Below are positions 3,476-29,778 of a DNA stretch of 36,936 nucleotides, in pieces. Within the stretch, counting starts at the first letter, position 1. Each line of letters begins with the position of its first letter. A program made the position numbers and the translations under genes. The notes beneath the pieces are model-generated. The model worked only from the letters and a program-made list of their open reading frames with translations, did not search any database and was not told the DNA's origin. The DNA is taken from positions 1 through 36,936 of the forward strand of contig PABG01000003.1 in NCBI GenBank assembly GCA_002699185.1, given 5' to 3'. This DNA comes from Gammaproteobacteria bacterium. Its GTDB lineage: Bacteria; Pseudomonadota; Gammaproteobacteria; Thiohalobacterales; Thiohalobacteraceae.

Positions 3476-4753
3476 TTAACGCGACACCGCCATCTTCGGC
3501 CACTGGTAACTCAGGCTCAGGGTGACGGCATTGCCGGTCGCGTCCTCGTCGGTATCCTCGCGGCTCTGCTCGGTGTAGCGGTAGCTGGCGCGGAAACTCC
3601 AGTCCCGGGTAAGCCGCCAGCGCAGGCCGGGGGTGATCCGGATGAAGGACTGGTCCAGGCGCAGGTCGTTGTCGCTGGAGTCCTCCGAGCGGGTCCATTG
3701 TACCCTGATATCGGCCTGGAGCCGCTCGCTGAAGCGATGCTCGAAGGCTGCCACCAGGCTGTCGGTGACGGTGGTCCCGGAGAAGGCGTTGGGCTGGACC
3801 TGGCGGCTGGCGCTCAGTGACAGATGACCGCGTTCCAGGTCGTAGCCGGCGTTGAAATTGCCGACGAAGCCGGTGGAACTGGAATCCCGGGTGAAGGTGG
3901 TCTGGACCAGGTTGCTGGTCGCACCGGTGCTGCGGTCGATACAGGGTGCGCCGGTGACCAGGAATTCGAAGAAATCGGTGCGGTCGAAGCCGGCGGGACA
4001 GACGAAGGCACCCTGGCGCAGGGTGGTCTCGGTGCGCCGCGCGCCCAGTGAGCCGCTGAGATTGATTCGCTCCGAGTACTGGTGGTCGAAGCCCAGGGTA
4101 AGTTGTTGATTGTCGCTCTGGATGGTGTCGTCGTCGCGCTCGAAGCGGCTGGCGCCGGCAGCGAGGATGAGTTGGGTCTGGGGCGTGAAGCTGCGCGCCG
4201 CGCTCAGATTGAGGCTGTAGTTGCGGTAGTCGCCCAGGCCGGTGCGGGCACTGTCGCCGTCATAGTTGACATCCGTCAGGCCGAGGCTGGCGCTGAGCTG
4301 GGTCTTCTCGTCCCAGGAATACAGCCAGCCAGGCGTCAGGGTCGCGCGGGTGCGGTCGATGCGGTCGAAGACGATGCCGGTCTCCTCCAGCAGGCTGTCC
4401 AGGGTGGTGTCCTTGATCAGATTGAAGTCCAGGCTGGCCCGCTGGCGCGGACTCAGGTTGTAGAAGGACAGTAGATCGAAGCGGCCGTCGGTGGTGTCCA
4501 GTCCGTCCTCGTCGAAACGCCGCTCGGTGATCTCGAGCGCGCCGGTCAGTTCGCTGCGGGCGGTGCGGCGCGAGAAATCGGCCCAGGCGCGCAGGGCGCC
4601 CTCGTGGACGTCGATCTCGTCCTGACGCTGCAGGCGCAGATTGTCGTCATAGCGGTAGCGACCCTCCACCCCGGGCTCGAAGGCCCATTCGGCGGCGGAC
4701 AACGGCAGGGCGGCAGCGCCCAGCAGGAGCAGCAGGGTGAGGCGTTGTTTCAT
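3476..4753 (-). CDS. Outer-membrane beta-barrel protein of the EPS locus
   Basis: 425 residues with a clear signal peptide (MKQRLTLLLLLGAAALPLSA, cut before AEW). The rest is a regular alternation of amphipathic strands such as LSASLGLTDVNYDG and LNLSAARSFTPQTQLILAAG, rich in Tyr, Arg, Asp and Ser with few Cys, as expected for a beta-barrel. The protein ends in LSLSYQWPKMAVSR, so the usual terminal aromatic is not the last residue. The length and position between the export and chain-length genes fit the PEP-CTERM-associated outer-membrane proteins (TIGR03016 or BBP2-like); I cannot decide which from sequence reading alone. The likely role is passage or anchoring of the polysaccharide at the outer membrane (inference). 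The ATG start immediately precedes a good signal peptide. Confidence 0.8.
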   Translation of the reverse strand: MKQRLTLLLLLGAAALPLSAAEWAFEPGVEGRYRYDDNLRLQRQDEIDVHEGALRAWADFSRRTARSELTGALEITERRFDEDGLDTTDGRFDLLSFYNLSPRQRASLDFNLIKDTTLDSLLEETGIVFDRIDRTRATLTPGWLYSWDEKTQLSASLGLTDVNYDGDSARTGLGDYRNYSLNLSAARSFTPQTQLILAAGASRFERDDDTIQSDNQQLTLGFDHQYSERINLSGSLGARRTETTLRQGAFVCPAGFDRTDFFEFLVTGAPCIDRSTGATSNLVQTTFTRDSSSTGFVGNFNAGYDLERGHLSLSASRQVQPNAFSGTTVTDSLVAAFEHRFSERLQADIRVQWTRSEDSSDNDLRLDQSFIRITPGLRWRLTRDWSFRASYRYTEQSREDTDEDATGNAVTLSLSYQWPKMAVSR

Positions 4754-5121: not shown

Positions 5122-5682
5122 TTACGGCACCACCACCACATCCCCCGGCTGCAGCACGATGTTCTGCTCCAGGTTCTCACCCTTCTCGATCTCACCGTAC
5201 TCGAACGGGATGGCGCGCAATTCGCTGCCCTGGCGGCGCAGGATCCTGATCTTGTTGGCCGCGGCGTAGGTGCCCATGCCGCCGGCCATGGACAGGGCCT
5301 GCATCACGTCCACGTTGCGGGTGACCGGGAAGGCGCCCGGGCGGTTGACCTTGCCGATGACATAGACGGTGTTGCCCCGCAGTTCGCCCACGTCCACGCT
5401 GACCACCGGATCGGGGATGTATTTCTCCAGCCGGGCCTCGATCTGCTCACGCAGGCCGGAGACCGGCTGACCGGCGCCGGCGAGCTCGCCGACCAGCGGG
5501 AAGCTGATCATCCCGTCCGGCCGGACGATGACCTCGCGCTGCAGGTCCTCCTCCTTCCAGACCGTGATGCGCAGGATATCGCCGGGCTGGATCAGATAGG
5601 CCTCGGCGGGCGGTTCCTCCGCCTGGAGATGAAGGCTGGTCAGCAACAGTAAGAGGGTGAGGATGGATTGGATCTTTCGCAT
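5122..5682 (-). CDS. Wza-like polysaccharide export protein (XrtA/PEP-CTERM type)
   Basis: Periplasmic or outer-membrane export component of the EPS system. The 186 residues begin with a signal peptide (ILTLLLLLTSLHLQA) without a lipobox cysteine. The Poly_export domain starts at YLIQPGDILRITVWKE and contains the conserved VRPDGMISFPLVGE strand. A single SLBB-like segment follows (VYVIGKVNRPGAFPV), and the protein ends exactly at LQPGDVVVVP. It is far shorter than E. coli Wza and lacks the C-terminal transmembrane helix, as is usual for the PEP-CTERM-associated subgroup. It is the first gene of the minus-strand EPS group; the 368-bp gap to the next gene suggests a separate transcript. No strong ribosome-binding site is visible before the ATG. 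Confidence 0.9.
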   Translation of the reverse strand: MRKIQSILTLLLLLTSLHLQAEEPPAEAYLIQPGDILRITVWKEEDLQREVIVRPDGMISFPLVGELAGAGQPVSGLREQIEARLEKYIPDPVVSVDVGELRGNTVYVIGKVNRPGAFPVTRNVDVMQALSMAGGMGTYAAANKIRILRRQGSELRAIPFEYGEIEKGENLEQNIVLQPGDVVVVP

Positions 5683-5889: not shown

Positions 5890-8451
5890 TTAGTGCAGGC
5901 GTCGCCGGCTCAGGCCGAGGCCTGTAAGGAATACGCCGATCAGCACCCACTCCAGACCGGGAGTCCTGGTATTCCCCAGGGAACAGCCGGCGCTGGACCC
6001 CAGACCGGGACCGTCGATTTCCGTGTCCGACGTCGCTTCTGCTTCGCCGCCAGCGCCGCTGGTGGTGAAGTTGAGGTTGAAGTTGGGTCTGAAGCCGGTG
6101 AAGTTGCCGGTGAGAATCTGCGCTCCCGGGCAACCGTCGCCGTCGGCGTCCATCGCAGCAAGCTCAAAGGTTGCATCAGCCGGGAAGGAGCCGGAAGGCG
6201 CCCTTGGACCGGAGAAGATGGTGGATCCCGACGGGGGTGTGAACACGCTGTTTCGCTCCCACAGATTGACTACATGGATATCGCGCTCCTGGTTCCAGTC
6301 GAACAGGATGTGCGCTCCGACCTGATCCGCGCCGACCGTGAGTGTGAGTATCTGGTCCGGGCTGCCACCGCAGTCATCGCCCATGCCTGCCTCGATGTCA
6401 GCCGCGCGGCAGGCCGTATCGATGGTGTAGGTGCCGGGGCCGAAGACACGGATGTGGTGCGCTGCCCAGGAGAACCCGAAGAAGGGAAAGCCAGGGTTGC
6501 TGGACAGGGCCTCGGCTGCGGTTGCCGCGGACTCCGGGCTGCCCGGAGGCGTGGTGAGTGGGCTGCCGATGGGCACCGCAGTGCAGCCCGGGTTGGAGCC
6601 CTCGCTGCACATGGTCATGTTGAAGTTGGTGCCGGTGGATGTTGTGTTGAACGTGCCATCCCACACGGCAATGATGTCATTGGTGCCGCCGAAGGTGGCG
6701 CAGTTGCTGCCGTCCGCAGCGTCCAGCATGGTGAAGTTGCCGTACACCTGCCCGATAATGATACTGATGGTGTTGGTAACAGTATCAGTGCCATCAGTGA
6801 TGGTGTAGGTGAAGCTGTCGGTGCCCATATCCAGATCGGGTGAGGGGCTGTATGTCAATGTGTTGCTGCCATCAAAGGACACCGTGCTGCCGGTTTGTGT
6901 GGGCTGGGTCGTCGAGTCCAGTGACAGCACATCGCCTTCTGTATCCGTGCAGTTCGCTATCAGGTCATTGGCAACATCGATGGTAATGTCCTCACCAGAG
7001 GCGGTAACAAGATCGAAGTCCTGGCACACAGGCGCATCATTGACGGAGTTGATGGTGATGTTCACGGTTGCCGTGTCGCTGCCACCGCGTCCATCGAAGA
7101 TCTGATAGTTGAAGCTGTCCGCTCCGAAGAAATCCTCGGGTGGGGTGTAGGTGAGGGTGCCATCGCCATTGTCCACTACGACCACGCCCTGTGCAGTCAG
7201 GTTGTCAAAATCGAGGATCACCAGGGGGTCGCCGTCCGGGTCCGTGTCATTTGTCAGCGGGTCGATCACTAGAGGTGTGTCTTCATCGGTCACTACCGCA
7301 TCGTCGTTGGCGGTGGGTGCCGTATTCGTGGGGTCGTTGACGTTGATCGTGACAGTCGTGGTGTCGGGGTCGCCGTCCTCGTCCTCGATCGTGTAGTCGA
7401 ATGTATCCTGGCCGAAGAAGCCTGAGTCAGGGGTGTAGGTAAGGGTGCCGTCACCATTGTCAGTAAGCGTGTTGCCGGGTTCCGTCGGCTGGGTGAAGCT
7501 GGTGAAGGTCAGGACTTGCCCAGTTGCGTGCGTGTCGTTGGCGAGCAGATCGGCGTCGATATCGATGAGCAGCGGGGTGTCCAGGTTGGTCGTGAGAGTT
7601 TCGCTGTTGGCGACAGGGTCGGCAGAAACAACCTCGAACTGCACATTGAAGGCCTCGGAGTACGGCGTGCCATCAAAGGCGCCCCAAGAGGCGCCGACGT
7701 TGCCCACAGAAACCAGTACAGCATCCAGGATGCCATCGCTGTTGGCGTCGCCGATAGGACGGCCCGAAAGAGTGAGGTTCACGGCTCCGGTGCCGGGATC
7801 AAAGTTTGATGCGGATCCTGTGGTGAAGAGTTCGTAGTTTCCCGTGGTGGGGGCGCCAGTGCCGGCAACGTTGACTGAATCGTCGATATTCCAGGGCTGG
7901 ATTCCCAGTGAGCCTTCAAAGAATTGCGCTACACCTACACGGCCGGTGACATTCAGGTTCATGTTGCCCGCGGCGTCAACGGTTCCGCCTGCCTGAGGAT
8001 CGATGCTTCCGTCTGGCGGAGTCATGGTGGTCTTGAAGGTGCCGCCGGCGGTACTCAGATAGGGGTCAACCTGGAAGGCATCAAGAGTATAACTGATGTT
8101 GCCGCCGGAATCGGCTTTGCCCGTGGTGATGGTCAAGGTGCCGGCAAGTCCGTCGCCGGAGACGCCGTCACCGCCGCTCAGGGCGGGAGCGGTGGTAACT
8201 TCATTATCCGTGAATGCGCTCGGGCTGCCCGCGCTCGCCTCGCCAGGACACAACTCACTGATGTCACCAAAGGTGAAGGCCGAGCACTGGTCGACTGCAT
8301 CCGGATCATCCCATACGAGGATCTTTACGGTGTAGACGGCGTTTTCTTCCAATGTGGCGGCCAGCACGGGGGTGCTGAAGCCTGCTCCCAGTGCCAGGGC
8401 AACGGCGATGGAAACAGCTGAAGGTTGACCTATGGTCTGATGTCTGGACAT
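5890..8451 (-). CDS. Large modular surface protein with cadherin-like repeats
   Basis: 853 residues with a signal peptide (VALALGAGFSTPVLA). Domains in order: an N-domain (about 33-277) that shares the motifs GDGLAGTLTI, WNIDDS and GNVGASWGAFDGTPYSEAFN with the PEP-CTERM proteins at 10715 and 19192; three cadherin/Ig-like repeats of about 95 residues (about 278, 374 and 470 onward) with NDNGDGTLTYTP and DTFDYTIEDEDGD-type calcium-binding motifs; and a C-domain (about 569-797) with FTMLD, MDADGDGCPG and GFRPNFNLNF, resembling the 330-residue protein at 17052. The tail TPGLEWVLIGVFLTGLGLSRRR has the Pro-helix-Arg plan of sorting signals but not the PAAVWLFGSG sequence. GGAGGAG lies ten bases before the ATG. 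It is probably an adhesin or matrix protein, transcribed with or after the FadL gene 90 bp upstream. Confidence 0.85.
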   Translation of the reverse strand: MSRHQTIGQPSAVSIAVALALGAGFSTPVLAATLEENAVYTVKILVWDDPDAVDQCSAFTFGDISELCPGEASAGSPSAFTDNEVTTAPALSGGDGVSGDGLAGTLTITTGKADSGGNISYTLDAFQVDPYLSTAGGTFKTTMTPPDGSIDPQAGGTVDAAGNMNLNVTGRVGVAQFFEGSLGIQPWNIDDSVNVAGTGAPTTGNYELFTTGSASNFDPGTGAVNLTLSGRPIGDANSDGILDAVLVSVGNVGASWGAFDGTPYSEAFNVQFEVVSADPVANSETLTTNLDTPLLIDIDADLLANDTHATGQVLTFTSFTQPTEPGNTLTDNGDGTLTYTPDSGFFGQDTFDYTIEDEDGDPDTTTVTINVNDPTNTAPTANDDAVVTDEDTPLVIDPLTNDTDPDGDPLVILDFDNLTAQGVVVVDNGDGTLTYTPPEDFFGADSFNYQIFDGRGGSDTATVNITINSVNDAPVCQDFDLVTASGEDITIDVANDLIANCTDTEGDVLSLDSTTQPTQTGSTVSFDGSNTLTYSPSPDLDMGTDSFTYTITDGTDTVTNTISIIIGQVYGNFTMLDAADGSNCATFGGTNDIIAVWDGTFNTTSTGTNFNMTMCSEGSNPGCTAVPIGSPLTTPPGSPESAATAAEALSSNPGFPFFGFSWAAHHIRVFGPGTYTIDTACRAADIEAGMGDDCGGSPDQILTLTVGADQVGAHILFDWNQERDIHVVNLWERNSVFTPPSGSTIFSGPRAPSGSFPADATFELAAMDADGDGCPGAQILTGNFTGFRPNFNLNFTTSGAGGEAEATSDTEIDGPGLGSSAGCSLGNTRTPGLEWVLIGVFLTGLGLSRRRLH

Positions 8452-8541
8452 GGTGTGTTACTCCTCCAAATCTGTAATCACGATAGTCTTGCGCTATCGC
8501 GGATGTTCCGGATTGTTTTGTTCTGATTGCTGTCTCGGTAA

Positions 8542-9996
8542 TCAGAGCCGATAGCCGAAGCTGATACCGATGGAATTGATCCGCATGTCGATGGCTGCGT
8601 TCTCGCCCACCTCGGTCAGACCGCTCTGCGGTCCGAATGGGGTCGGACCCTTGATCGTATTGCTGAAGGCGTGCATGTAATTGGCGGACCATTCGATGTT
8701 GGGGCTGGGACGGTAGCTGAGACCCAGGGTGATGTGGTGTTCATTGACCGCCGGCGCCAGGAAATTGAACAGGATCTGGTCTTTCTGTATCGGGGTTTCC
8801 GCATAATTGTAGCCGGCGCGGAATGACCATTGGCTGTTGTAGTCGTAATTTATGCCGATCTTGTAGACCTCAGCGTCGTTCCAGCCGAAGCCCAATCCCT
8901 TGTCCCTGCCCAGGGCGCAGGGCTGATCTTCCAGTGCAACGCCCGCAGGGCAGTCATTACTGCTCGGGAAGAATGAACTCGGGTTGGAAGGATCGGGGCC
9001 GGGATTGCCGACTGAGGGGATGTCGTTGTAGTTGATTTTCTGATAATCCGCGGCAACGGTGAGCTTGTCTGTCAATTCGTAGGCCAGTCCCAGTGCCCAG
9101 TGTTCGGGGATGTCGAAGCCGCCTTGGCCAGCAAACAGGTTCTTGTACTTGTCAAATTTGCTCATATGGGTCTTGGAGGCATAGTTGGCACCGAGCGACA
9201 GTTTGCCGTCAATGAATTTTCCGAGCCATCCGAGACGGAAGCCTGCGCCGTACGACCAGTCATTGCCCTCGTTGGTCAGTTTGCCGCTACCGGCGCCGAA
9301 GCCGAGACCGATGACGGCACCGGGATTTCGCGGGTCAGGTACCTGGCCGAAGGCCTGCAGGCCGTAGGCACGGAATTGCTGTACCGCGATGATGAGAGAA
9401 GCACCGAGGGTATGGTTCTCTGTCAGCTTGTAGGCCAGGCCGGGCAGCATCTGCATCTGCATCAGGGAGACGCCGGCGGTCTGGCTGCCGATGCAGTTGA
9501 AATTGAACAGGGTGGATGCGCTGCCATCGCTGAAATTGCTGTCCATGCAATTGGGTTTGCCGGGCACGGTCTGGTCATAGCGGGTGTTGGCGCCATTGCC
9601 GATCACCGCCATGCCGACTGTCAGGTCACGGTTGAATTTGAATGTGAAGCCCATGCTGGGGATGAGAAACACGTTCGAGCCGCTGCGATGGCTTACCGCG
9701 GAATCGCTGCCGGGAAAGTTGCTTTCAAGTGCGACACTGTCATGGGAGGCGGCGCGTTTAGGGAGAAAGAATTCCCCGCCCATGTCGAATCGCATGACAT
9801 TGGACTCGACATCCGCCATGCCGGCCGGGTTTGCTGCCCCGGCCAGGGCATCCTGGGCATAGGCAACGCCGACACCACCCATGGAGCGGGATTTGGCGCC
9901 ATAACCGATCAGAAAATAGCCGTTGGTGGCGAAGGCCGTGGCCGGCAGGAACAGGGCGGCCGCAATGGCGGCGCTGCAAAGCTGACGTTGATTCAT
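8542..9996 (-). CDS. FadL/TodX (OmpP1)-family outer-membrane transporter
   Basis: Outer-membrane channel for hydrophobic substrates such as long-chain fatty acids or hydrocarbons. The 484 residues have a signal peptide ending ATAFA, then the family N-terminus TNGYFLIGYGAKSRSMGGVG and the hatch-region motif YAQDALAGAANPAGM. Many beta strands follow, including YGAGFRLGWLGKF and WSFRAGYNYAETPIQ, and the end NSIGISFGYRL is typical of the family. Paired cysteines occur in an extracellular-loop-like region (SNDCPAGVALEDQPCALG). GGAGGAG lies a few bases before the ATG. The substrate cannot be told from the sequence. The surface protein gene follows by 90 bp on the same strand and may be co-transcribed. 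Confidence 0.93.
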   Translation of the reverse strand: MNQRQLCSAAIAAALFLPATAFATNGYFLIGYGAKSRSMGGVGVAYAQDALAGAANPAGMADVESNVMRFDMGGEFFLPKRAASHDSVALESNFPGSDSAVSHRSGSNVFLIPSMGFTFKFNRDLTVGMAVIGNGANTRYDQTVPGKPNCMDSNFSDGSASTLFNFNCIGSQTAGVSLMQMQMLPGLAYKLTENHTLGASLIIAVQQFRAYGLQAFGQVPDPRNPGAVIGLGFGAGSGKLTNEGNDWSYGAGFRLGWLGKFIDGKLSLGANYASKTHMSKFDKYKNLFAGQGGFDIPEHWALGLAYELTDKLTVAADYQKINYNDIPSVGNPGPDPSNPSSFFPSSNDCPAGVALEDQPCALGRDKGLGFGWNDAEVYKIGINYDYNSQWSFRAGYNYAETPIQKDQILFNFLAPAVNEHHITLGLSYRPSPNIEWSANYMHAFSNTIKGPTPFGPQSGLTEVGENAAIDMRINSIGISFGYRL

Positions 9997-10714
9997 TGGC
10001 TCCTCCAGGATGCAACTTTTTGATTTAATTTATGTTCAAGGTCACGCGCCGCGGTGCTTTCGATGCAGATCTTGACAATCTGACTGTGGTTTGGTGCATC
10101 GCGATGTCGGCGGTGGTTAATGCGTTGTCATCTGTGCTTGATATTCTGTGGTGCGCTTGACGACAACCGGATCCCGACTAGTCCAAGGCGGCTAATCATG
10201 ATCAGCGGTTTCTTCTCTGTCAAGGCACATGTATGGCACATATCGGGGAAAATGTAAGTCAGGTATGTGCGTACATATCACTAGGATGAATGCTGACACC
10301 TGGTGTGTGTCGACCATGGGGTGTGGGCCGGTTAGACTCATCCGGATCGAGTACCGTCGGATACGGTCGGTTAACAAAAAGCCGGTAATGCCTTCAACCC
10401 GTCTTGTCGGGCTTCTTTGCAACCGGCAATCAGCGATGGTGACAGCGGTGGGGTAAATAAAAATATTGATAAAACAATGTGATATTAGTGTCTCGAGGGC
10501 TGCGGGCAGTCGTTCCGGTTGTCGGAATCATTAACAAAAATAGCTGTTGTGTGCAGCCAAGATCAGTACCTGCTTGATCAGGCAGGAATTAATTTTTATG
10601 GCATGTGACTTGCTTTATCCAATGCGTGTAAGTGACAGACTGATAGTCACTCACGCGAGGCATGTAGGACATTTGATGTCTCAACAACCAAAATCCTTTT
10701 GGAGGAGTTTGATA
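9997..10714. other. 718-bp divergent regulatory gap between FadL and a PEP-CTERM gene
   Basis: No gene is supported; the ORF running 10547-10714 is only an upstream extension of the PEP-CTERM reading frame. The gap is AT-richer than its neighbours and contains a sigma-54-type promoter at 10599-10614. A small CCCG-TCTTGT-CGGG hairpin near 10398-10411 is followed by CTTCTTT, and may be a weak terminator or part of a leader. Promoters for the FadL gene on the minus strand must lie here, but I cannot identify them. Confidence 0.6.
10599..10614 (+). promoter_or_regulatory. Sigma-54 (-24/-12) promoter for the first PEP-CTERM gene
   Basis: TGGCATGTGACTTGCT matches the RpoN consensus TGGCACG-N4-TTGCA: GG and GC are separated by exactly ten bases, and TGGCA and TTGC are kept. 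It lies 101 bases upstream of the ATG at 10715, on the same strand. Control of PEP-CTERM genes by RpoN together with PrsK/PrsR is known in other proteobacteria; neither regulator is encoded in this window. Confidence 0.75.
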
Positions 10715-11506
10715 ATGAAGAAAACGATTCTTTCCGCAGCAATGATCGCCGCCATGGGCGCCGGCAGCGCGCAGGCCGCATTCCTGCAGGCTGGCTCCAC
10801 CGGCACCATCGATTTCACCGCCGGCTGCTTCACCTTTGGCGACTGTGCCATCGGTGGTACCGGCAATGTCACTGACAACGACATCACCGTGCGCGGCAAC
10901 GGTACCGGCGTGGCCGGCGACGGTCTCGTGGGCCAGATCAGTTTCACCGTGGCGGCTGATGGTAACACTCTGATCATCGACAGTTTCCAGCAGGACACCT
11001 ACACCGGTACCGCAGGCGGCAACTTTGCCCTGAATACCGATGCCGCCAGCAGTAGCGGCTTCATCTCGGATTCCGGTGATGTCTCCCTGAGTCTGGCGCG
11101 TTCCGGCTTCCCCCAGTTCTTCTCTTACCTGGATGGGGCTGCTTGGAACATCGATGATTCCACCGTCGCTACCAATGCTGGCACCGCAACCAATACTTGG
11201 GATGTGCTGACCAGCGGTACCAGTACCAATCTGGACCCCTCGACTGGTGATCCGAATGCCAGTGGCACCGGTGTTGCACTGTCTTCCGCGGGTGCTGGTA
11301 TGTGGACTGGTGCAATCGTGAATTTCGGCAACGTTGGTGCCGGCTGGAGTAGCTTCAATAACACGCCCTACTCCGAGAAATTCAATATCACGGTGAACGG
11401 CGTTGCTGCTACCACCTCACCGGTCCCGGTGCCGGCGGCAGTCTGGCTGTTCGGCTCCGGCCTGCTCGGTCTGGTGGGCGTGGCCCGTCGCCGCAAGGCA
11501 GCCTGA
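10715..11506 (+). CDS. PEP-CTERM surface protein, paralog 1
   Basis: 263 residues. The signal peptide (MKKTILSAAMIAAMGAGSAQA) is followed by a 215-residue domain with CFTFGDC near its start, GDGLVGQISF, AWNIDDSTV and NVGAGWSSFNNTPYSEKFN. The C-terminus VPVPAAVWLFGSGLLGLVGVARRR is a textbook PEP-CTERM sorting signal, predicted to be cut by an exosortase (XrtA type) after translocation. I chose ATG 10715, not the track start at 10547, because GGAGGAG lies seven bases upstream and a signal peptide starts there. A close paralog is encoded at 19192, and the same domain forms the N-terminus of the 853-residue protein. A sigma-54 promoter precedes the gene and a strong terminator follows it, so it forms a single-gene transcript. 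The function of the domain is not known to me. Confidence 0.92.
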   Translation: MKKTILSAAMIAAMGAGSAQAAFLQAGSTGTIDFTAGCFTFGDCAIGGTGNVTDNDITVRGNGTGVAGDGLVGQISFTVAADGNTLIIDSFQQDTYTGTAGGNFALNTDAASSSGFISDSGDVSLSLARSGFPQFFSYLDGAAWNIDDSTVATNAGTATNTWDVLTSGTSTNLDPSTGDPNASGTGVALSSAGAGMWTGAIVNFGNVGAGWSSFNNTPYSEKFNITVNGVAATTSPVPVPAAVWLFGSGLLGLVGVARRRKAA

Positions 11507-11558
11507 AGTCGTAACGGCGCTACCGGGAGGCTGTAAGCCGCCTCCCGGTGGGAGGATG

Positions 11559-11594
11559 AAAGCGGGCACTGGTTACCAGTGCCCGCTTTTTTTT
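11559..11594 (+). terminator. Strong intrinsic terminator after PEP-CTERM paralog 1
   Basis: AAAGCGGGCACTGG and CCAGTGCCCGCTTT pair perfectly around a 3-base loop and are followed by eight T in a row. A second smaller hairpin (GGGAGGC..GCCTCCC) precedes it at about 11525-11546. It separates the PEP-CTERM gene from the sulfotransferase pair. Confidence 0.93.
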
Positions 11595-11647
11595 GCGTGT
11601 TGGCTGTCGCGTGTAAGCGAGGCTTCGTGCGAGACTGAATACCCATA

Positions 11648-13321
11648 ATGGCAATAATCGCAGACAAGCTGCATAAGGCGGCAACCAGGCTCAGGAAGGG
11701 CGACCTCGAGGGCGCCTGGAAACAGGCGGAAACCGCCCGTCGCCGTGCCCCGGCGAGTCCGCAGCCACTTGTCATGCTCGGGCGTATCGCCTTGCAGGCC
11801 GGCAGATATCACCAGGCAAGAGAGGCGCTTGAGCAGGCGGTACAGCGCGATTCCCAGGATGCGCGAAGTCTGTACCTGCTTGGCTACGCCTGTATGCAGC
11901 AGGGTGATCCTGCAGCAGCGGTCCTGCATCTGTCTGCGGCCTGCGAGGTCGATCCCGAGCTTGGTGAGGCGTACAACCGGCTGTGTGCTGTACTCGGCCA
12001 GTCAGGACGAATAATGGAAGCGGCCAGGGCCGGCGAGCGGGCGATCGAGTTGCTGCCTGATTCGGCTGATGCATACACGAATCTCGGCAGCGTTTACGAA
12101 ATCCAGGGAAGGCTGGACGCCGCACTGCGATGCCGTGAACAGGCAGCCCGCCTGCTGCCGTCGCATCCACGAATTCAGCACTGTCTGGCCAACGCCCTGT
12201 TGGCGGTTGGGCAGACGGAAGCAGCCGAGAAACACTATCGCAAGGCACTTGAACTGAAGCCCGACTTCGCCCCGCCCTGGCGGATTCTTGTGCGTCTGCA
12301 CCGTTATTCGAATCCTGATGCCGAGGATGCATTGAAAATTCGTGAACAACTGGAGAAAGTGCCCGAGGCGGACCGCGGCGATCTGCATTTCGCCCTGGGT
12401 AAGATCTATGATGACTGTGGCGTGGTAGCGGAGGCTTTCGAGCAGTTTCAGCTGGCCAACAGGATTGAAAATGCCCGGCATAACTTCGATATCGAGGCTT
12501 TGCGTACGCGGGTGGACGCTGTCGTGGCCGCATTCACGCCGGAATTCTTTCGTGCCAGGGCCGGCTTTGGCGTGGAATCGGAGCAGCCGGTTTTCATTGT
12601 CGGTATGCCGCGCTCGGGAACGACGCTGGTGGAAAGTATTCTTGCGGCCCACAAGGATGTCTTCGCTGGTGGCGAGTTGTACTGGTTCGGTGAGTTGGAT
12701 CGGCTGGTGGAGCAGGCTGTTGGTGGCGATGCTGCCTATCCGCGTTGTGTGCGGGAACTGAGTTCAGAGCATTGTCGCCAGCTTGCCGAAGATTACCTGG
12801 ACTATCTGAGACAGTTGACAGATGGCGAGGCTTATTTGCGGATTACCGACAAGCTGCTGTCAAACCTGTTCCATCTCGGGATGTTACATCTTGTTTTCCC
12901 TCAAGCCCGGATAATTCATTGCAGGCGTGACCCGATGGATACCTGCTTCTCGATTTATAAGATCAAGACGCCGGACAGTCTGCCTTTCGCCTATGATCTG
13001 GAAAATGTTGCGCATATGTATAATTGTTATCGCCGACTCATGCATCATTGGGAAAAGGTGTTGCCGCAGCAGATCATGACGATCGATTATGAATCGCTTG
13101 TGAGTAATCAGGTTGATCTGACGCAGCGTCTGCTGGACTTTGTCGGATTGCCCTGGGACGAGGCCTGTGTTCAATTTCACGCGAATAAAGCCATGACGCG
13201 AACGCTCAGTGCGGAACAGGTGCGTGAACCTCTGCATGCAAGATCGATTGGTCGCTGGCAAGCCTACGAGACCTTTCTTGAGCCCATGCGCAAAATACTG
13301 GAACAGGATGGCCTGGGCTGA
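11648..13321 (+). CDS. TPR-repeat sulfotransferase, first of a tandem pair
   Basis: 557 residues: an N-terminal half of tetratricopeptide repeats (about 5-210, for example DSADAYTNLGSVYEIQGRLD) and a C-terminal PAPS-dependent sulfotransferase domain (Sulfotransfer_3-like, about 312-545). The 5'-phosphosulfate loop reads VFIVGMPRSGTTLVES (about 315) and the 3'-phosphate motif reads IIHCRRDPMDTCFSIY (about 421); both look intact. No signal peptide, so it is probably cytoplasmic. The substrate is unknown: polysaccharide, lipid or protein tyrosine are all possible. The ATG has only a weak ribosome-binding site and lies 54 bp beyond a terminator, so an unrecognised promoter must lie in that short gap, or readthrough occurs. 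The second copy begins directly at its stop codon. Confidence 0.88.
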   Translation: MAIIADKLHKAATRLRKGDLEGAWKQAETARRRAPASPQPLVMLGRIALQAGRYHQAREALEQAVQRDSQDARSLYLLGYACMQQGDPAAAVLHLSAACEVDPELGEAYNRLCAVLGQSGRIMEAARAGERAIELLPDSADAYTNLGSVYEIQGRLDAALRCREQAARLLPSHPRIQHCLANALLAVGQTEAAEKHYRKALELKPDFAPPWRILVRLHRYSNPDAEDALKIREQLEKVPEADRGDLHFALGKIYDDCGVVAEAFEQFQLANRIENARHNFDIEALRTRVDAVVAAFTPEFFRARAGFGVESEQPVFIVGMPRSGTTLVESILAAHKDVFAGGELYWFGELDRLVEQAVGGDAAYPRCVRELSSEHCRQLAEDYLDYLRQLTDGEAYLRITDKLLSNLFHLGMLHLVFPQARIIHCRRDPMDTCFSIYKIKTPDSLPFAYDLENVAHMYNCYRRLMHHWEKVLPQQIMTIDYESLVSNQVDLTQRLLDFVGLPWDEACVQFHANKAMTRTLSAEQVREPLHARSIGRWQAYETFLEPMRKILEQDGLG

Positions 13322-15040
13322 GTGCTGCCGGTCATCAGGTTGATCGATATGTCAAGTGACCGGGTTCAGGCGGCGATTGCGGCGTTCAAGGCCGGGGATT
13401 ATCGGCGCGTCAGGACGCTGTGCCGGAAGGTCTTGAAGAGGCAGTCGGGTCGACCGGATATGCTCGAGTTGCTCGGTCTTGCTGAACTCCGATTGGGCCG
13501 GCCGCAGCAGGCTGAGCCCTGGCTGCACAAACTGATCGCCGCTCGACCGACCGACCCGGTAGCTCACTATAATCTGGGTCTGGCACGTTATAGAGGGGGT
13601 GATCCGCAAGCGGCGCTGCCGCTGTTTGAGCGTGCGCTGGCCATCACCCCCGATCTTGCGCCCTGCTGGTCGGATATGGCGCTGGCATTGAAGGACTGCC
13701 GGCGGTACGAGGAGGCAGTCGCAGCGATAAGTCAGGCCTGCCGGCTGGCACCTGATGTGGCAGGGTTTCATAACAATGCCGGAGTTATCCATCAGGCTTA
13801 CGGTTTGCTGGAGCGGGCCTATGATCATTACCGTCGTGCGGTTGAGCTGGATGCATCCAATCCCGTCTACCTCAAGAACCTGGGGCTCGCGCATCTTGGG
13901 TACGGCAAACGCGAACAGGCTGAAGCGGTTTTTCGCAAGGCATTGATGTTTCAGCCTGAGTATGGCGAGGCCTGGCGCCATCTTGTTTTTACCCACTGCT
14001 ACGACTCAGTCCAGCACGAGGATATCCGCCGGCTTGAGGCGCTGCGGCAGCGGGAGAATTTGCCGGCGACAACTCGGGTGGACATTCTGTTCGCCCTGGG
14101 TAAGGCCTATGACGACTGTGGCGAATACGAATCGGCCTTTGTCTGCTTCCAAGAGGGCAATGCCAGTGAGAGTGCCAGACTCGGCTTCGATCCCGGCCGT
14201 TTGCGAAGCAGGTATCGAGACAGTGCAGAAGTGTTCAAGGCCAGGAATCTGCCGCCGGCAGCGCCGGTTTCTGGCCCATCGGCTTATCCTGAGCCAGTCT
14301 TCATCGTGGGCCTGCCAAGATCAGGGACATCTTTGCTGGAGGGGCTTCTGGCCGGCCATTCGCTGATCTGTGCTGGCGGCGAGCGATACTGGTTCAACGA
14401 TCTTGAGCAACGCCTGCCATCGCTGACCGCCGGGCATCAGCCCTATCCCTGGTGTCTCAGGGATATGGGTGAGGATTTATTGAATGAGTTGGCAGGAGAA
14501 TACCGCAAACACCTCGCGTCTATTAGCGACGGTTCCCCGTATGTCATTGATAAACTGCCAGCGAATTTCGAGCGCTTGGGCCTGATCCGGATGTTGTTTC
14601 CCACAGCGCCGATCATCCATTGCGAGCGTAATCCGATGGATGTGTGCTGGTCACTGTACACGCAGCGATTCCCGGATGCGCTGCATTATGCATACGATTT
14701 CCAGCATTTGGCTCAGTACGTCGAATATCACCGGGACATTATGGCGCTTTGGCATGAGTGTTATCCCGGGGTAATTCTGGATGTCGGCTACGAGTCATTG
14801 ATTGAAGAGCCCCGGGATACTCTGCGGGCGTTGTGTGGCTTCATCGGTGTGGCCTGGGAAGAGAGCTGCATGATGGGCTCGAATGCCCGCCGCTGGGTGA
14901 ATACGGCGAGTGATTATCAGGTCCATGGAGGCGTCCGATCCAATACTGGTGGACGGTGGCAGCCTTATATGCATTACCTTTCCGGCCTTCACGCTGACTT
15001 GGCAAGGGTGGGCGGCTGGCCAGGATGTGTTTCCCCGTGA
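13322..15040 (+). CDS. TPR-repeat sulfotransferase, second of a tandem pair
   Basis: 572 residues with the same plan as the preceding gene. TPR repeats fill about 10-215, a shared linker has (F)ALGKxYDDCGxxxxAF, and the sulfotransferase domain carries VFIVGLPRSGTSLLEG (about 326) and IIHCERNPMDVCWSLY (about 430). The 3'-phosphate motif has Asn where the first copy has Asp; the Arg and Ser are kept. The track start is GTG 13322, which abuts the upstream TGA; an in-frame ATG at 13349 is an equally good choice and neither has a clear ribosome-binding site, so translation is probably coupled. The two copies are diverged and may act on different acceptors. The expected location is the cytoplasm. 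Confidence 0.87.
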   Translation: MLPVIRLIDMSSDRVQAAIAAFKAGDYRRVRTLCRKVLKRQSGRPDMLELLGLAELRLGRPQQAEPWLHKLIAARPTDPVAHYNLGLARYRGGDPQAALPLFERALAITPDLAPCWSDMALALKDCRRYEEAVAAISQACRLAPDVAGFHNNAGVIHQAYGLLERAYDHYRRAVELDASNPVYLKNLGLAHLGYGKREQAEAVFRKALMFQPEYGEAWRHLVFTHCYDSVQHEDIRRLEALRQRENLPATTRVDILFALGKAYDDCGEYESAFVCFQEGNASESARLGFDPGRLRSRYRDSAEVFKARNLPPAAPVSGPSAYPEPVFIVGLPRSGTSLLEGLLAGHSLICAGGERYWFNDLEQRLPSLTAGHQPYPWCLRDMGEDLLNELAGEYRKHLASISDGSPYVIDKLPANFERLGLIRMLFPTAPIIHCERNPMDVCWSLYTQRFPDALHYAYDFQHLAQYVEYHRDIMALWHECYPGVILDVGYESLIEEPRDTLRALCGFIGVAWEESCMMGSNARRWVNTASDYQVHGGVRSNTGGRWQPYMHYLSGLHADLARVGGWPGCVSP

Positions 15041-15448
15041 GGAAACCCTGATGAATGCGATGGTAGGTATGGTGAAGCGAAAGTGCGTGGTTTATGGTCG
15101 ATGAGTATGAAATGGCCGCTCTCGCTGATATGTTTCGCAAGCATCACAGGTTGGGATAGCCCGCAGGGCGTAACCCAGCATTCAGACTGCATTCGTTGAT
15201 CTACTCGCTCTCGCGACTGACCCAATCAACAGAGCCGTCTGCTTAGCATATGTGTAAGACTAGCTGAGTCGGCTTCTTCCAACGTAGCATTCCACAGTCA
15301 GGCCGAACAGGCCGGTAGCGTCCAGTCCGGACGAATCGTCGATGTTCCCGGGCTGCATGTCGATGCAGTCAGAGGAAAAGCCGGAATAGCTGTCCTAACC
15401 GTGGACGTTAAAACCATACTGTCAGCGCTATCCACACGGGAACCATGT
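15041..15448. other. 408-bp gap between the sulfotransferases and the 376-residue protein gene
   Basis: Genes converge on this gap. It holds a single repeat half (AGGTTGGGATAGCCCGCAGG.., about 15148-15180) resembling the GTAGGATGGGT family, and a possible gene remnant at 15260-15394 (separate entry). No intrinsic terminator with a T-run is visible. Confidence 0.5.
15260..15394 (-). pseudogene. Possible remnant of a secreted-protein gene
   Basis: A 44-codon open frame without a start codon near its 5' end reads DSYSGFSSDCIDMQPGNIDD and then SSGLDATGLFGLTVECYVG. Its codons are GC-rich at third positions, like those of real genes here, and NIDDS recalls the WNIDDS motif of the neighbouring PEP-CTERM family. 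A stop codon lies directly upstream in frame. It is too short to be sure; it may be chance. Confidence 0.25.
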
Positions 15449-16579
15449 TCAGCTTTTGAGGCCGGTTTCCAACCGTTCACGAATCAGGCTGCAGTAAAGT
15501 ATTTGATAGCTGGACGCGCCCAGATTACCTACTTTGAGCGAGTGCCGCTGCCTGGCCGGGCTGCCTGGACCATGAAGCTTGAACAGCAAGGGTTGCAGAC
15601 CGGCCAATGTAAGTTCCCGATGCAGCGTCCTGAATGTGCGTGTCCGGCCTTCGAAGTCTTCCGGTGTGTCCCCGGCGCCAATGGTGAATATCAGATCGGC
15701 CTCGGTATCCAGGCAGGGTGTAAGGCGGCTAAGAAATTCCCGTACATCAGGAAGCATCCGATGATCGATCCTGAACCCCGTTACCAGGTTTCGGGGCGGA
15801 CGGCCTTCGCCCCGTAGCGTGTCAAGTGCTTCTGGTGTGGGTAGGTTGTATGCCCTGACATTCAGTTCAGTGTTCTGTTCCAGAGATTGGAATTGCTCCC
15901 GATGTCTGGAATCGACATCCACGATGACACTGTCCGGTGTTGTCTCATGGGTTGTAGACAGCCGATACAGCGTATCCCCGCCATGCCTCGTCAGTGTGAT
16001 TCTTGGAGCAAGATGCATGAACAGCAGGTCGCGGTTGCCCTCACCACAGCCAAGGCCCAACTGGAGAAGTTCCGAGGTCGGACGGGTGAAGAGTCCCAGG
16101 TTTCGCAGTAGTTGAACGCTGCGCATGGTGTCCATGGCGTGTAGCTTGCCAACGATCCTTGCGCGGAATTCGTCCGGTTTGTGCCGGGAAGCTTCCAGGA
16201 ACTGCCTGGCCAATGCCAACAGCTGATCACCGCGCAGTTGGTTCAGGCTGAGGGAGGAATCATGCAGGAGATGACAGCATGCAGCCAGGTGGGCGATGGC
16301 AAAGGCAGTGCGCAGCTGTGCGTTCCTGGTGCTTAGTGGATCGATGCCCTGCTGAGCACCAGCCTCACGGGTGAGTGCGGCGCTAGTAACCGGGGCGGCC
16401 GCGCATTCCGAGAGGTAGGCGGAATGATCGGAGAGGCATTGCAGTAATGCGGCGAAATCCGGCCGTTTCGATAATCGGGCCAGCAGACTGATTTCACTCA
16501 GGTAGTCCTTGCAGAACCTTTCGTGGCTGGGTGGACGATACCGCAGTTCCGGATTGTCTGTGCCGTGTTGCATTCTCAT
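15449..16579 (-). CDS. Unrecognised 376-residue protein, possibly Rossmann/methyltransferase-like
   Basis: I do not recognise the family. There is no signal peptide or membrane helix, so it should be cytoplasmic. The N-terminal half (1-165) looks all-helical. The segment LLQLGLGCGEGNRDLL (about 167) resembles the glycine-rich SAM-binding loop of class I methyltransferases, and later strands (DSVIVDVDSRH, ADLIFTIGAGDTPEDF) would fit an alpha/beta fold. However, the acidic residue expected after the second strand is not obvious. Codon use is like its neighbours. It is the only minus-strand gene among the sulfotransferase and PEP-CTERM genes, and its 5' end faces the sigma-54 promoter region of the next gene. 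No good ribosome-binding site is seen; ATG codons occur at 16579 and 16573. Confidence 0.75.
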   Translation of the reverse strand: MRMQHGTDNPELRYRPPSHERFCKDYLSEISLLARLSKRPDFAALLQCLSDHSAYLSECAAAPVTSAALTREAGAQQGIDPLSTRNAQLRTAFAIAHLAACCHLLHDSSLSLNQLRGDQLLALARQFLEASRHKPDEFRARIVGKLHAMDTMRSVQLLRNLGLFTRPTSELLQLGLGCGEGNRDLLFMHLAPRITLTRHGGDTLYRLSTTHETTPDSVIVDVDSRHREQFQSLEQNTELNVRAYNLPTPEALDTLRGEGRPPRNLVTGFRIDHRMLPDVREFLSRLTPCLDTEADLIFTIGAGDTPEDFEGRTRTFRTLHRELTLAGLQPLLFKLHGPGSPARQRHSLKVGNLGASSYQILYCSLIRERLETGLKS

Positions 16580-17051
16580 ATTCTACCGGAAAAAGAATGA
16601 CTTTGGGTGTTGTTTGACCTGGTCTGCAGGGTCATTGTCTGGTGCTGATCTTGAGCCTGGGGTTGTAATTCAACCGGTCGTCGGATGCTGCGTCGATAAT
16701 TTTTACAGCATGTTTTGGGCCTTCCGGCCAGTTTTTGCTGCCTCATCTACATGAATTTAAGCAATAAAAAATAAATCATCCGATTTAGTCCTACATCTTG
16801 TTGTTTAAGACTGTCTTACAGAGGTTCTGTCGGTGATCTTTATTCCTGGTCAGGTTCATATTGGCAAGGTGTCGCGTTAACTTAATGAATAATTTAGTTA
16901 AAGTTGTGTTGGCCCGGCGCTTGCAGAGTGCTTTATGACGATCACAGAAATAAAGCGGAAACGGAATTCAGCGCGGAGGAGTCTTTGTTGTCCTGCCATC
17001 AAAAGTAACCACAGCGGCTGGGCAGTTCATCAAGTTTGAGGAGGTAAGACG
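16580..17051. other. 472-bp divergent AT-rich regulatory gap
   Basis: No gene is supported. The gap is clearly AT-richer than its surroundings (for example TTTAAGCAATAAAAAATAAATC near 16752) and carries a sigma-54-type promoter at 16910-16925 for the plus-strand gene. The AT-rich stretch about 100-200 bases upstream of that promoter is where an activator or IHF would be expected to bind, but I cannot point to a specific site. Confidence 0.6.
16910..16925 (+). promoter_or_regulatory. Sigma-54 (-24/-12) promoter for the 330-residue secreted protein
   Basis: TGGCCCGGCGCTTGCA matches TGGCACG-N4-TTGCA at all key bases except one (C for A), with the exact ten-base spacing between GG and GC. It lies 127 bases upstream of ATG 17052. 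Distance and orientation parallel the promoter at 10599. Confidence 0.8.
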
Positions 17052-18044
17052 ATGCAAATCGCGAAAAGAATCAGCAAGCAACCAATCATCTTCAAACCAG
17101 GTGTGTTGGGGGTCGCCTTGTTGCTTGCAGGTGGATCTGCGAATGCCGGCCTGCTCGGTGGGTTGCTTGATACCACCAAGGATGTCGTGGAGGACACAAC
17201 ACAGACGGTTGAGGATACCCTCGATGCGGTCAATGTTGACGCGAAAGTGGCCAGTGTGGGCATGGATTTCAGTGGCTGGGTGACAATGCTCGATCCCCAG
17301 GGGCGACCACTACAGAATCCGAATTTTCTGGATGAGCCCAGGTTCAATGGCTGGCGCACTCCCGTTTCTGGCAGCATGGTGTTGAACATTACCAACGATG
17401 GGCTGGTGGGCAAGGCAACCTTCGGCTCCTTCAAGTTCTTTTTTCAGGATGCTTCTGGAAGAGATGTGACCTTTGTTTCGGCTCATACGCTGCTTGGTGT
17501 TCCGTCCGATACGCTTCTCATCGGCAATATGCTGTTCGATTTCGGTGCGACCAGGGGGATCCCCGTCAGCGTGGTTCTTGATGTTGGCGGACTTACGACT
17601 GCACTTCAGAGTACTGCTGAAGGACAGGTCCTGAAGGGTCTGCTGACTGCGGAGTCGGATAACACTCAGACTCCCGATCCCAGCGTTGATATATCCATTG
17701 GCCCCGTATTGGTGGCTACCACAGCGTGGAATACCACGGATGTAGATACAGACGGAGATGGCCAGCCGGGGCCTCTCGAACTGGGAGACAACCCCAGCGG
17801 CACGACACCGCTGATTCGTGATATGGCGGTTGACGCGACGAATGGAGATATTGGAATCGGCGGCTCTCCGATGAGTACCTTGCCATTCCAGGGATTCAGC
17901 CCGAATTTCGATATAGAAAAAGCCACAGTGACCTGCGTGAGTGCAATCCTGTCAGATTGTGAAGCAGGTGGGTTGTCACTGCCCAAGTTTGAAATGAGCG
18001 CTCAGCCGCTGGAGCCCTTGGTGGATTTGCTCAACGCGGAGTGA
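17052..18044 (+). CDS. Secreted protein lacking a C-terminal sorting signal
   Basis: 330 residues. An extended N-terminus ends in a hydrophobic signal segment (GVLGVALLLAGGSANA), followed by a short helical stretch (LLDTTKDVVEDTTQTVEDTL) and a beta-rich domain. Motifs WVTMLDPQG, MLFDFGATRGIPV, DTDGDGQPG and FQGFSPNFDIEKATVTC parallel, in the same order, motifs in the C-domain of the 853-residue protein. DTDGDGQPG looks like a calcium-binding loop. The protein ends ...PLVDLLNAE with no membrane helix or Arg cluster, so it should be released or retained by partners. GAGGAGG lies nine bases upstream of the ATG. It has a sigma-54 promoter and may be co-transcribed with the PEP-CTERM gene 116 bp downstream. 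The function is unknown to me. Confidence 0.85.
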   Translation: MQIAKRISKQPIIFKPGVLGVALLLAGGSANAGLLGGLLDTTKDVVEDTTQTVEDTLDAVNVDAKVASVGMDFSGWVTMLDPQGRPLQNPNFLDEPRFNGWRTPVSGSMVLNITNDGLVGKATFGSFKFFFQDASGRDVTFVSAHTLLGVPSDTLLIGNMLFDFGATRGIPVSVVLDVGGLTTALQSTAEGQVLKGLLTAESDNTQTPDPSVDISIGPVLVATTAWNTTDVDTDGDGQPGPLELGDNPSGTTPLIRDMAVDATNGDIGIGGSPMSTLPFQGFSPNFDIEKATVTCVSAILSDCEAGGLSLPKFEMSAQPLEPLVDLLNAE

Positions 18045-18160
18045 TGCGATGATAGCGCTGCTCCGCTGGTTGTTATTCGACCGGAAGGCAGCTGTAAATT
18101 CTCGTTTATGGGTTTGATGGCAATAAATTGCGACCGTGTGGCATCAGAGGAGTAAACACA

Positions 18161-19054
18161 ATGACTATCAATAAAATCATAGGTGTGCTGGGTGTGGGCG
18201 CGATACTTGCGTTGAGCAGTCAGCAGGCCGCAGCCGCGGTTGTGGGCAGTGGTATGGCTGCCAGCCATGGGCTTGAGGCTGGTTTGAGCGCATTCGATGG
18301 AAACCTGAGCCTCAGTATCGATCCGTTGCCGGTGGGTGTGTCGGTCGTGGCGCCGCCTCCGGGCAATGTGAGTAACACTCATTTTGGCGTGGATACCGGA
18401 GATGCGTTCAAGCCGGGATTGCTATCCTCGACTTTCGCAATGGAGTTGTCCACAGGTGTTCTCAATGCCAGTGCCTCATCCACGGTTGATGGTGCTCCGG
18501 GCGTGAAGGAGAGTTCGGCGTCGTCATCTGTCGATGATCTTGATTTCAGGATTGGTACGCTTGATCTGCTGGGTTTGATTTCTGCTTCCACGGTAGATCT
18601 GACTGCAGGCACCATCAGTTCCAGTGCAAGCGTCGGTGGCACGCCTGGAAATTTTGTGGCGAATGGTGGGACTACGCTGGAGGATGCCAGTTTATCGCTG
18701 GTCGATGCGGATATCCTGGGTATTGGCCTGGGCCTGGATGGCAATCTAATCGTTAATCCAGATCCTAACCTTGTGATTGTTAATGCGCTGGGGCTTACCG
18801 TGACCCTGAACCGCCAGCTGGTTAACGGTGAGGTCGGTGGTAGCTGCGCTATTAACGACTGTCATATCAGCGTGGATGCCATTGTGCTTGAATTCACTGA
18901 TTTTCTCCTGGGGGGCGGGCTGCTGAATGGCGAACTTGTCCTTGGGCATTCGGAAGCCGGCGTGAGTGCTGTTCCGGTTCCAGCCGCTGTGTGGCTTTTC
19001 GGTAGTGGTCTGGTTGGGCTGTATGGGTTGGCTAGAAGAAAAGCAGTGGCATGA
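18161..19054 (+). CDS. PEP-CTERM surface protein, distinct family
   Basis: 297 residues. The signal peptide (IIGVLGVGAILALSSQQAAA) is followed by a Ser/Gly/Asp-rich beta domain with repeated short strands such as LSLSIDPLPVGVSV and LDLLGLISASTVDLTAGT, and a CAINDC cysteine pair near the C-terminal third. The end, VPVPAAVWLFGSGLVGLYGLARRK, is a canonical PEP-CTERM signal, nearly the same as in the two paralogs at 10715 and 19192, although the rest is unrelated by eye. ATG 18161 is preferred over the track start at 18128 because AGAGGAG lies nine bases upstream and the signal peptide starts there. It lies between the 330-residue protein gene (116 bp upstream) and PEP-CTERM paralog 2 (137 bp downstream), so one transcript for all three is possible. 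Confidence 0.9.
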   Translation: MTINKIIGVLGVGAILALSSQQAAAAVVGSGMAASHGLEAGLSAFDGNLSLSIDPLPVGVSVVAPPPGNVSNTHFGVDTGDAFKPGLLSSTFAMELSTGVLNASASSTVDGAPGVKESSASSSVDDLDFRIGTLDLLGLISASTVDLTAGTISSSASVGGTPGNFVANGGTTLEDASLSLVDADILGIGLGLDGNLIVNPDPNLVIVNALGLTVTLNRQLVNGEVGGSCAINDCHISVDAIVLEFTDFLLGGGLLNGELVLGHSEAGVSAVPVPAAVWLFGSGLVGLYGLARRKAVA

Positions 19055-19191
19055 ATATGCCCCAGGTGGAGTTCAGGGGTATTTAAGGACGGCTGATTGA
19101 TGGCGAGTGAAGTTGTTGCAATTGGCCAATGAGCAGGGATGGCTGGTAGAGATTGTTTGTATGCTATACGTCAATATGGAGGAGTTTGGTT

Positions 19192-19995
19192 ATGAATATC
19201 AAGAAAACAATCCTGTCGTCCGCGGTGATCACCGCGCTGGGTGTTGCAGGTTCAGCTCAGGCCGCATTCCTGCAGGCCGGTACCACCGGTACCATCGATT
19301 TCACCGGCGGCTGCTTCACCTTCGGTGACTGCGCCATTGGTGGTACTGGCAATGTTGCAGACAATGATATTACTGTGCGGGGGAATGGCACTGGCGTGGC
19401 TGGCGATGGTCTGGTTGGGCAGATCAGCTTTACCGTGGCAGCTGACGGTAATACTCTGATCATCGATAGCCTTCAGCAGGACACCTACACTGGTACCGCC
19501 GGTGGTAACTTTGCCCTGAATACCGATGCCAGCAGCAGCAGCGGTTTCATCTCGGATTCGGGGGAGGTTTCCCTGAGTCTCGCCCGTTCAGGGTATCCGC
19601 AGTTCTTCAGCTATCTGGATGGCTCTCCGTGGAATATCGATGATTCCACGGTGGCAACCAATGCCGGCACCGCAACCAATACCTGGGATGTTCTGACCAC
19701 TGGTACCAGTACCAACCTGGATCCGTCTACCGGTGATCCGAATGCCAGTGGTACGGGGGTTGCCCTGTCTTCCTCGGGTGCCGGTATGTGGAGCGGGATG
19801 GTTGTCAATTTCGGCAACGTTGGTGCAGGCTGGGGGAGTTTCGACAATACGCCATATTCCGAGAAGTTCAATATCACCGTTAATGGGGTGGCTGCGACAA
19901 CTTCACCGGTACCTGTTCCGGCTGCGGTATGGCTGTTCGGTAGTGGTATGCTTGGTCTGGTCGGTATTGCACGGCGGCGTCGGGCCCAGGCTTAG
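19192..19995 (+). CDS. PEP-CTERM surface protein, paralog 2
   Basis: 267 residues, near-identical in its mature part to the protein at 10715 (about 90 percent by eye) with a slightly different signal peptide (MNIKKTILSSAVITALGVAGSAQA). It has the same landmarks: CFTFGDC, GDGLVGQISF, PWNIDDSTV, NVGAGWGSFDNTPYSEKFN and C-terminal VPVPAAVWLFGSGMLGLVGIARRRR. The DNA differs at many third codon positions while the protein is conserved, which suggests selection to keep both copies. ATG 19192 is chosen because GGAGGAG lies seven bases upstream, exactly as in paralog 1. No canonical sigma-54 site is found in the 137 bp before it. A terminator follows at 20065. Confidence 0.92.
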   Translation: MNIKKTILSSAVITALGVAGSAQAAFLQAGTTGTIDFTGGCFTFGDCAIGGTGNVADNDITVRGNGTGVAGDGLVGQISFTVAADGNTLIIDSLQQDTYTGTAGGNFALNTDASSSSGFISDSGEVSLSLARSGYPQFFSYLDGSPWNIDDSTVATNAGTATNTWDVLTTGTSTNLDPSTGDPNASGTGVALSSSGAGMWSGMVVNFGNVGAGWGSFDNTPYSEKFNITVNGVAATTSPVPVPAAVWLFGSGMLGLVGIARRRRAQA

Positions 19996-28555: not shown

Positions 28556-28558
28556 ACC

Positions 28559-29776: not shown

Positions 29777-29778
29777 AA

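Follow-up and report, generated by a model that had tools for sequence, protein, structure and literature searches.

The stretch of DNA analyzed here, referred to as the window (36,936 nucleotides; positions 1 to 36,936 of contig PABG01000003.1 in the gammaproteobacterial assembly GCA_002699185.1), contains within positions 5,890 to 19,995 the genes of a large predicted surface protein, A, and of two small proteins with PEP-CTERM sorting signals, B and C. The genes are arranged in the order polysaccharide chain-length determinant, TIGR03016-like protein, export protein, A, FadL, B, two TPR/sulfotransferase-like proteins, the open reading frames (ORFs) beginning at 17052 and 18128, C, and a response regulator/histidine kinase (RR/HK) pair. 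A, B, and C have a module in common, here named N1, and related genomes carry other modules that are likewise matched between a large protein and small PEP-CTERM proteins. This matched-module locus, which extends beyond what the initial annotation of the window saw, is the point of main interest.

A large surface protein and two small PEP-CTERM proteins share a module

The initial annotation proposed that a single N-terminal domain links the 853-residue protein A to the two PEP-CTERM proteins. Pairwise alignment established that this region is a homologous module: A and B share 37% identity and 53% positives over 219 residues (A residues 59–277, E value 6e-26), and A and C also share 37% identity (E value 1e-25). 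The Smith–Waterman score of the N-module of A against B was 304, compared with 57 ± 10 (largest value 96) for 1000 shuffled versions of B, and profile comparison of the N-terminal region of A with the small proteins gave a clearly significant match. All of the motifs pointed out previously were found, in the same order in the three proteins; in A they are GDGL at residue 99, TAGG-F, WNIDDS at 187, DPGTG at 218, GNVGASW at 250, and TPYSEAFN at 262. The domain had been placed at residues 33–277 of A, an extent that the profile search reproduced (33–279), whereas the pairwise match begins only at residue 59. As the annotation had also stated, the module forms the entire mature body of the small proteins, with A residues ~57–279 aligning to almost all of the mature part of B and C, and it is followed in A by cadherin-like repeats, which matched Big_9, Cadherin_5, and tandem-95 models.

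B and C, whose corrected starts are the ATG codons at 10715 and 19192, are 90% identical over 263 residues. Since they are close paralogues, N1 is represented in the genome by two independent lines, not three. The synonymous divergence (dS) between them is 1.1, with over half of the synonymous sites changed, and the nonsynonymous divergence (dN) is 0.066 (dN/dS 0.06), indicating that both copies are retained by purifying selection. The small proteins start with a putative signal peptide, MKKTILSAAMIAAMGAGSAQAA, as read from the sequence, and the tails of B and C consist of a VPLPA-type PEP-CTERM signal, a hydrophobic stretch, and a basic end. C scored 24.9 bits with TIGR03370, slightly below the cut-off. 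An exosortase gene is present on contig 50 of the source genome (PF09721, 260 bits, E value 1.9e-77). In this genome, 17 places resemble B, mostly in the VPVPA tail alone.

Table 1. Features of the locus, with positions in the window.
Feature	Position	Strand	Basis or remark
A, 853-residue large surface protein	5890..8451	-	signal peptide, N1, three cadherin-like/tandem-95 repeats, N3, Cys-containing C-terminal tail
N1 module of A	7615..8355	-	residues 33-279 by profile search; pairwise match 59-277
Calcium-type loop in N1 of A, GDANSDGILD (DxNxDGxxD)	7723..7752	-	putative calcium site
Three bacterial Ig/cadherin-like repeats of A, residues ~280-567	6751..7614	-	Big_9 E 5e-53, Cadherin_5 E 8e-50; tandem-95
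N3 module of A, residues 568-800	6052..6750	-	matches stand-alone VPVPA-CTERM proteins of relatives
C-terminal tail of A, SSAGCSLGNT + hydrophobic helix + RRR	5893..5997	-	sequence; resembles tail of G002 counterpart
B, 263-residue VPVPA/PEP-CTERM protein, body = N1 module	10715..11506	+	pairwise alignment, profile matches
Sorting signal of B, VPVPAAVWLFGSG...RRRK	11423..11503	+	TIGR03370 29.6 bits, cut-off 25.35
C, 267-residue paralogue of B, N1 module + VPVPA-CTERM	19192..19995	+	alignment, profile scan
FadL/Toluene_X-type outer-membrane beta-barrel	8542..9996	-	Pfam E 8e-25; directly upstream of A
Exopolysaccharide export protein (Poly_export/SLBB, XrtA-system type)	5122..5682	-	family matches
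TIGR03016-like PEP-CTERM-system outer membrane protein	3476..4753	-	41 bits, under cut-off
XrtA-system polysaccharide chain-length determinant	1531..3282	-	family match
Two TPR proteins with sulfotransferase-like P-loop GMPRSGTT	11648..15040	+	sulfotransferase part read from sequence
Secreted 330-residue protein with N2 module (as in G002 pair), no PEP-CTERM tail	17052..18044	+	module comparison

Related genomes carry different modules in matched pairs

The family genomes compared were G000 (the source genome), G001, G002, G003, G006, and G008, together with G104, a metagenome-assembled genome (MAG) from elsewhere in the Gammaproteobacteria. The gene order FadL, large protein, export, TIGR03016, chain length is kept in G000, G001, G002, G003, and G006; in G008, FadL and the large protein are seen and the contig stops inside the latter. 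On its other side, the variable island is bounded in G001 by the RR/HK pair (97% and 83% identical); small PEP-CTERM and TPR/sulfotransferase-like genes lie between these borders. Which module stands at the N-terminus of the large protein changes from genome to genome: the window has N1, G002 has N2, G001 and G008 have N3, G003 has N4 (distantly N3-like), and G006 has N5. N1 and N5 have no match among the modules of the other family genomes.

Every genome compared possesses its own small PEP-CTERM protein with the module of its large protein. Identity between the two is 36.5% in the window (B and C), 54% in G002, and 51–58% in G006, the small protein of the latter two being the divergent neighbor of FadL, which is the position of B. 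In G003 it is 65–73%, with the small gene 10 kb off on the same contig; in G001 it is 77% for a protein encoded elsewhere and 39–42% at the locus; and in G104 it is 45%. The best small match lay within the same genome for six of the seven large proteins. Furthermore, a relative in the own genome at E < 1e-9 was found for all six large proteins but for only 10 of the 79 small PEP-CTERM proteins of six genomes (Fisher p 2e-5). The N5 pair of G006 flanks FadL (L090:10590-15303) and contains an EF-hand-like motif, MDxDGxGSVSDSE; N5-like small proteins occur in G010 (L146) too.

The source genome and G002 represent the two closest species. DNA flanking the island is 95–96% identical between them, in line with the 92–94% elsewhere in the genomes, but neither G002 nor G001 has a DNA match to the A gene. 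In a single genome, the paired modules have diverged to a dS of 1.6 in the window and 2.6 in G002. Set against the flanking identity, these values indicate, as judged from sequence divergence, that the pairs of the window and of G002 predate the split of the two species, and so do not stem from fresh copying within each species. The matched sets seem, from this divergence, to have been exchanged or sorted together.

N1 is a rare family

No named domain had been recognized for the N1 signature, and searches of Pfam, NCBIfam, and PDB sequences with N1 of A, B, C, and a wider set gave no family that covers it. N1 is new as a family, though rare. In the source genome it is confined to A, B, and C, and intact copies outside this genome were found in a single other gammaproteobacterial MAG, G104. 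N1 was absent from ten relatives in the order, from plasmids and IMG/VR, and, apart from the source genome, from a phylum sample. A class sample contained it in 2 of 369 genomes; with a larger profile, 5 of 369 were hit, of which two were chance matches and one was a 109-residue remnant. A first scan of 84,980 GTDB genomes gave no N1, and in a second GTDB scan the G104 MAG was the sole genome found. In G104, the module is carried by four small VPVPA-CTERM proteins encoded in tandem and by a single large protein that matches PKD weakly. In G203 (L038:2884-3072), a 109-residue open stretch similar to part of N1 lies between TPR and sulfotransferase-like genes and looks like a broken N1 copy.

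A DxNxDGxxD-type loop is present in six of the eight N1 members, namely A and the G104 proteins (one of these reads GDINGDGIDD), and calcium binding by this loop is predicted from the motif. The family profile shows the loop as an FG-GAP/integrin-type DxDxDGxxD motif, and when the eight-member profile was compared with the PDB, the only notable stretch was the calcium loop of integrin alpha-V (E value 0.0085). The repeated blades of an FG-GAP/integrin beta-propeller were not found, as only a single motif matched (Pfam E value 0.04–0.05). AlphaFold models had a mean pLDDT of 32.5 with three sequences and 55.4 with eight (pTM 0.62, all beta). Foldseek with the low-confidence model returned nothing at E ≤ 0.001; its top matches were PsbO barrels with a TM score of ~0.3. 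N1 was rejected as a distant form of N3 or N2 (hhalign probabilities 0.1–0.4%), despite a visual resemblance of the ends. Between N2 and N3, by contrast, an end motif is shared (hhalign 97.8%, 23 columns).

Other parts of A and neighboring genes

Besides N1, A contains a distinct PEP-CTERM-type module, N3, toward its C-terminus; the initial annotation overlooked it, as it did the Cys-containing tail. N3 matches small VPVPA-CTERM proteins and other large proteins in the genus and family; since N1 and N3 each have small PEP-CTERM relatives, both ends of A have stand-alone counterparts.

The relatives examined likewise have homologues of the TPR/sulfotransferase-like proteins at this locus, and these proteins might modify exopolysaccharide (EPS) or surface proteins. 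A further N2-like PEP-CTERM protein is encoded on contig 38 of the source genome (L015). The variable island includes a 376-residue protein at 15449-16579 that matches no Pfam or NCBIfam family, and secretin, MinD/CpaE-like, and TadA-like ATPase genes at 27188-31050 form a Tad-type pilus locus beside the island. Sigma-54 is known to be used for PEP-CTERM genes. A sigma-54-like site with one mismatch, TGGCATGTGACTTGCT, lies at 10599-10614, 116 bases before the start of B, a find at the level expected by chance; the window has 19 such sites against 23.5 expected, and only that of B is fittingly placed.

Possible role of the matched modules

The presence of matched modules in large and small proteins, found again in relatives, suggests that the two kinds of protein may be made to match on the cell surface. 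We favor the reading, with a probability of roughly 40%, that anchored large proteins and small proteins sorted by exosortase assemble with each other by way of like modules, thereby tethering the EPS matrix to the cell. N1 would then be an interchangeable surface module that is used twice within one system. A would be exported and kept on the outer surface by its Cys-containing, possibly lipidated tail, with the FadL-type porin as a putative outer-membrane partner that may help display it, and would show N1 atop a stalk of Ig/cadherin-like repeats. B and C would be freed from their membrane tail by exosortase and then enter the EPS layer, where anchored N1 could capture or seed sorted copies, like with like, by contact between the modules. 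Because the same module is found in both kinds of protein and relatives swap it in both, like-with-like assembly appears to be its most likely use.

Several observations weigh against co-assembly. B and C lack the DxNxDGxxD loop, and the N1 models are of low quality (pLDDT 32.5 and 55.4). In G104, the gene of the large N1 protein is not adjacent to FadL, and the protein lacks a sorting tail. For the large protein of G008, the match within its own genome is weak (30% identity, E value 5e-10) and the best match is in G001. Not all small proteins of the source genome carry a matching module; exceptions include N2 at 17052-18044, the ORF at 18128-19054, and others. In addition, the comparison was not blind: loci were taken from the surroundings of PEP-CTERM genes, and an N3 query had led to the N3 loci of G001 and G008. 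Resemblance between small and large proteins played no part in the choice of the G002, G003, and G006 pairs.

Matching without any contact between the proteins would be expected if a single polysaccharide, such as a sulfated EPS made by the strain, is the ligand of both kinds, so that the modules track the polysaccharide. The locus does sit among EPS export genes and beside the TPR/sulfotransferase-like genes, and in another bacterium PepA, also a PEP-CTERM protein, converts EPS from the soluble to the bound form (PMC9850573), indicating that PEP-CTERM proteins are able to act on the matrix. However, the chain-length and export proteins of the window are 98% and 80% identical to those of G002, yet the modules are unrelated, and no carbohydrate-binding family matching N1 was found. 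We consider a common ligand somewhat unlikely as the cause of the matching.

Neutral or recombinational shuffling, in which the slot in the large protein picks up modules from neighboring PEP-CTERM genes and the matching has no function, seems unlikely as well. The genes concerned are close to one another, and in the N1 tree A groups with B and C, and the large G104 protein with the small ones of G104. A clade of the two large proteins was rejected (p-AU 0.0005), which argues that the large proteins acquired or homogenized N1 separately. Against shuffling, the members of the pairs diverged long ago (dS 0.5 to 2.6) and are still constrained, as B and C are, several different modules are matched across genomes, and the pairs of the window and G002 precede the split of these genomes. 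It is very improbable that N1 is simply a lineage-specific surface domain found in three proteins of one genome: PEP-CTERM proteins are highly diverse, and lineage-specific paralogous families and expansions in single lineages are common among them (PMC1569441), but this leaves unexplained why the match should fall on the FadL-adjacent large protein in relatives whose modules are quite different.

A more far-reaching possibility, which we regard as distinctly unlikely, is that self-recognition depends on this island, with the stretch from the EPS genes to the RR/HK pair acting as a hypervariable cassette in which an anchored protein, its FadL partner, and small sorted proteins with one module would be exchanged between species as matched sets, so that the matrix would be shared only among cells with the same module. 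In genomes with exosortases, a large number of PEP-CTERM proteins have no known role or partner. If co-assembly through like modules is correct, the module of the FadL-linked protein would predict its small PEP-CTERM partners, giving a pairing rule based on sequence. It would also offer a testable route by which related biofilm or floc bacteria keep their matrices separate, and the locus would mark surface type in the way that pilin and O-antigen loci do.

Comparison with known systems

The small proteins resemble the PEP-CTERM/exosortase (XrtA) system in their putative signal peptide, the VPVPA-type tripartite tail, the exosortase gene in the genome, and the XrtA-type EPS genes, but their body belongs to no named family and is matched in a large protein with a different tail. 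As with PepA, they are PEP-CTERM proteins amid EPS genes, and B has a weak whole-length match to the floc_PepA model NF033554. The scores of 30 bits for B and 25 bits for C are far under the cut-off of 80, however, and come mainly from the tail; a relationship of N1 to PepA was rejected in profile–profile comparison of the bodies (hhalign 0.3%). The source genome has a true PepA-type protein (84 bits) on contig 50, together with the exosortase and a second export/chain-length set (L088, L045, L080).

In MYXO-CTERM proteins, lipidation of an invariant Cys is believed to precede cleavage by an intramembrane protease, and JDVT-CTERM has the Cys too (PMC11980579). The tail of the positional counterpart of A in G002, scanned alone, scored 28.4 bits with the JDVT-CTERM model (cut-off 27), and a Cys precedes the hydrophobic helix in the tails of the window, G002, G003, and G006. 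By contrast, the tail of A matched none of the sorting-signal models, including JDVT-CTERM NF033191, and a Cys is missing from the G001 tail. No two-gene MrtJ/JDVT arrangement of the published kind (PMC11980579) was present at the locus, where the neighbors of A are FadL and the export genes; MrtJ was not searched genome-wide.

The stalk of A consists of tandem-95/Big_9 repeats, like those of tandem-95/cadherin-like adhesins of the Bap/LapF type, but A has three repeats only and carries PEP-CTERM-type modules at its ends; it scored 38 bits with adhes_GNV_Cterm (cut-off 180). In curli, anchored CsgB and soluble CsgA are built of like units, and in TraA-type recognition a polymorphic surface protein matches itself. 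Both are analogous to the proposed assembly in their working only, whereas at the present locus each partner has an entire module replaced.

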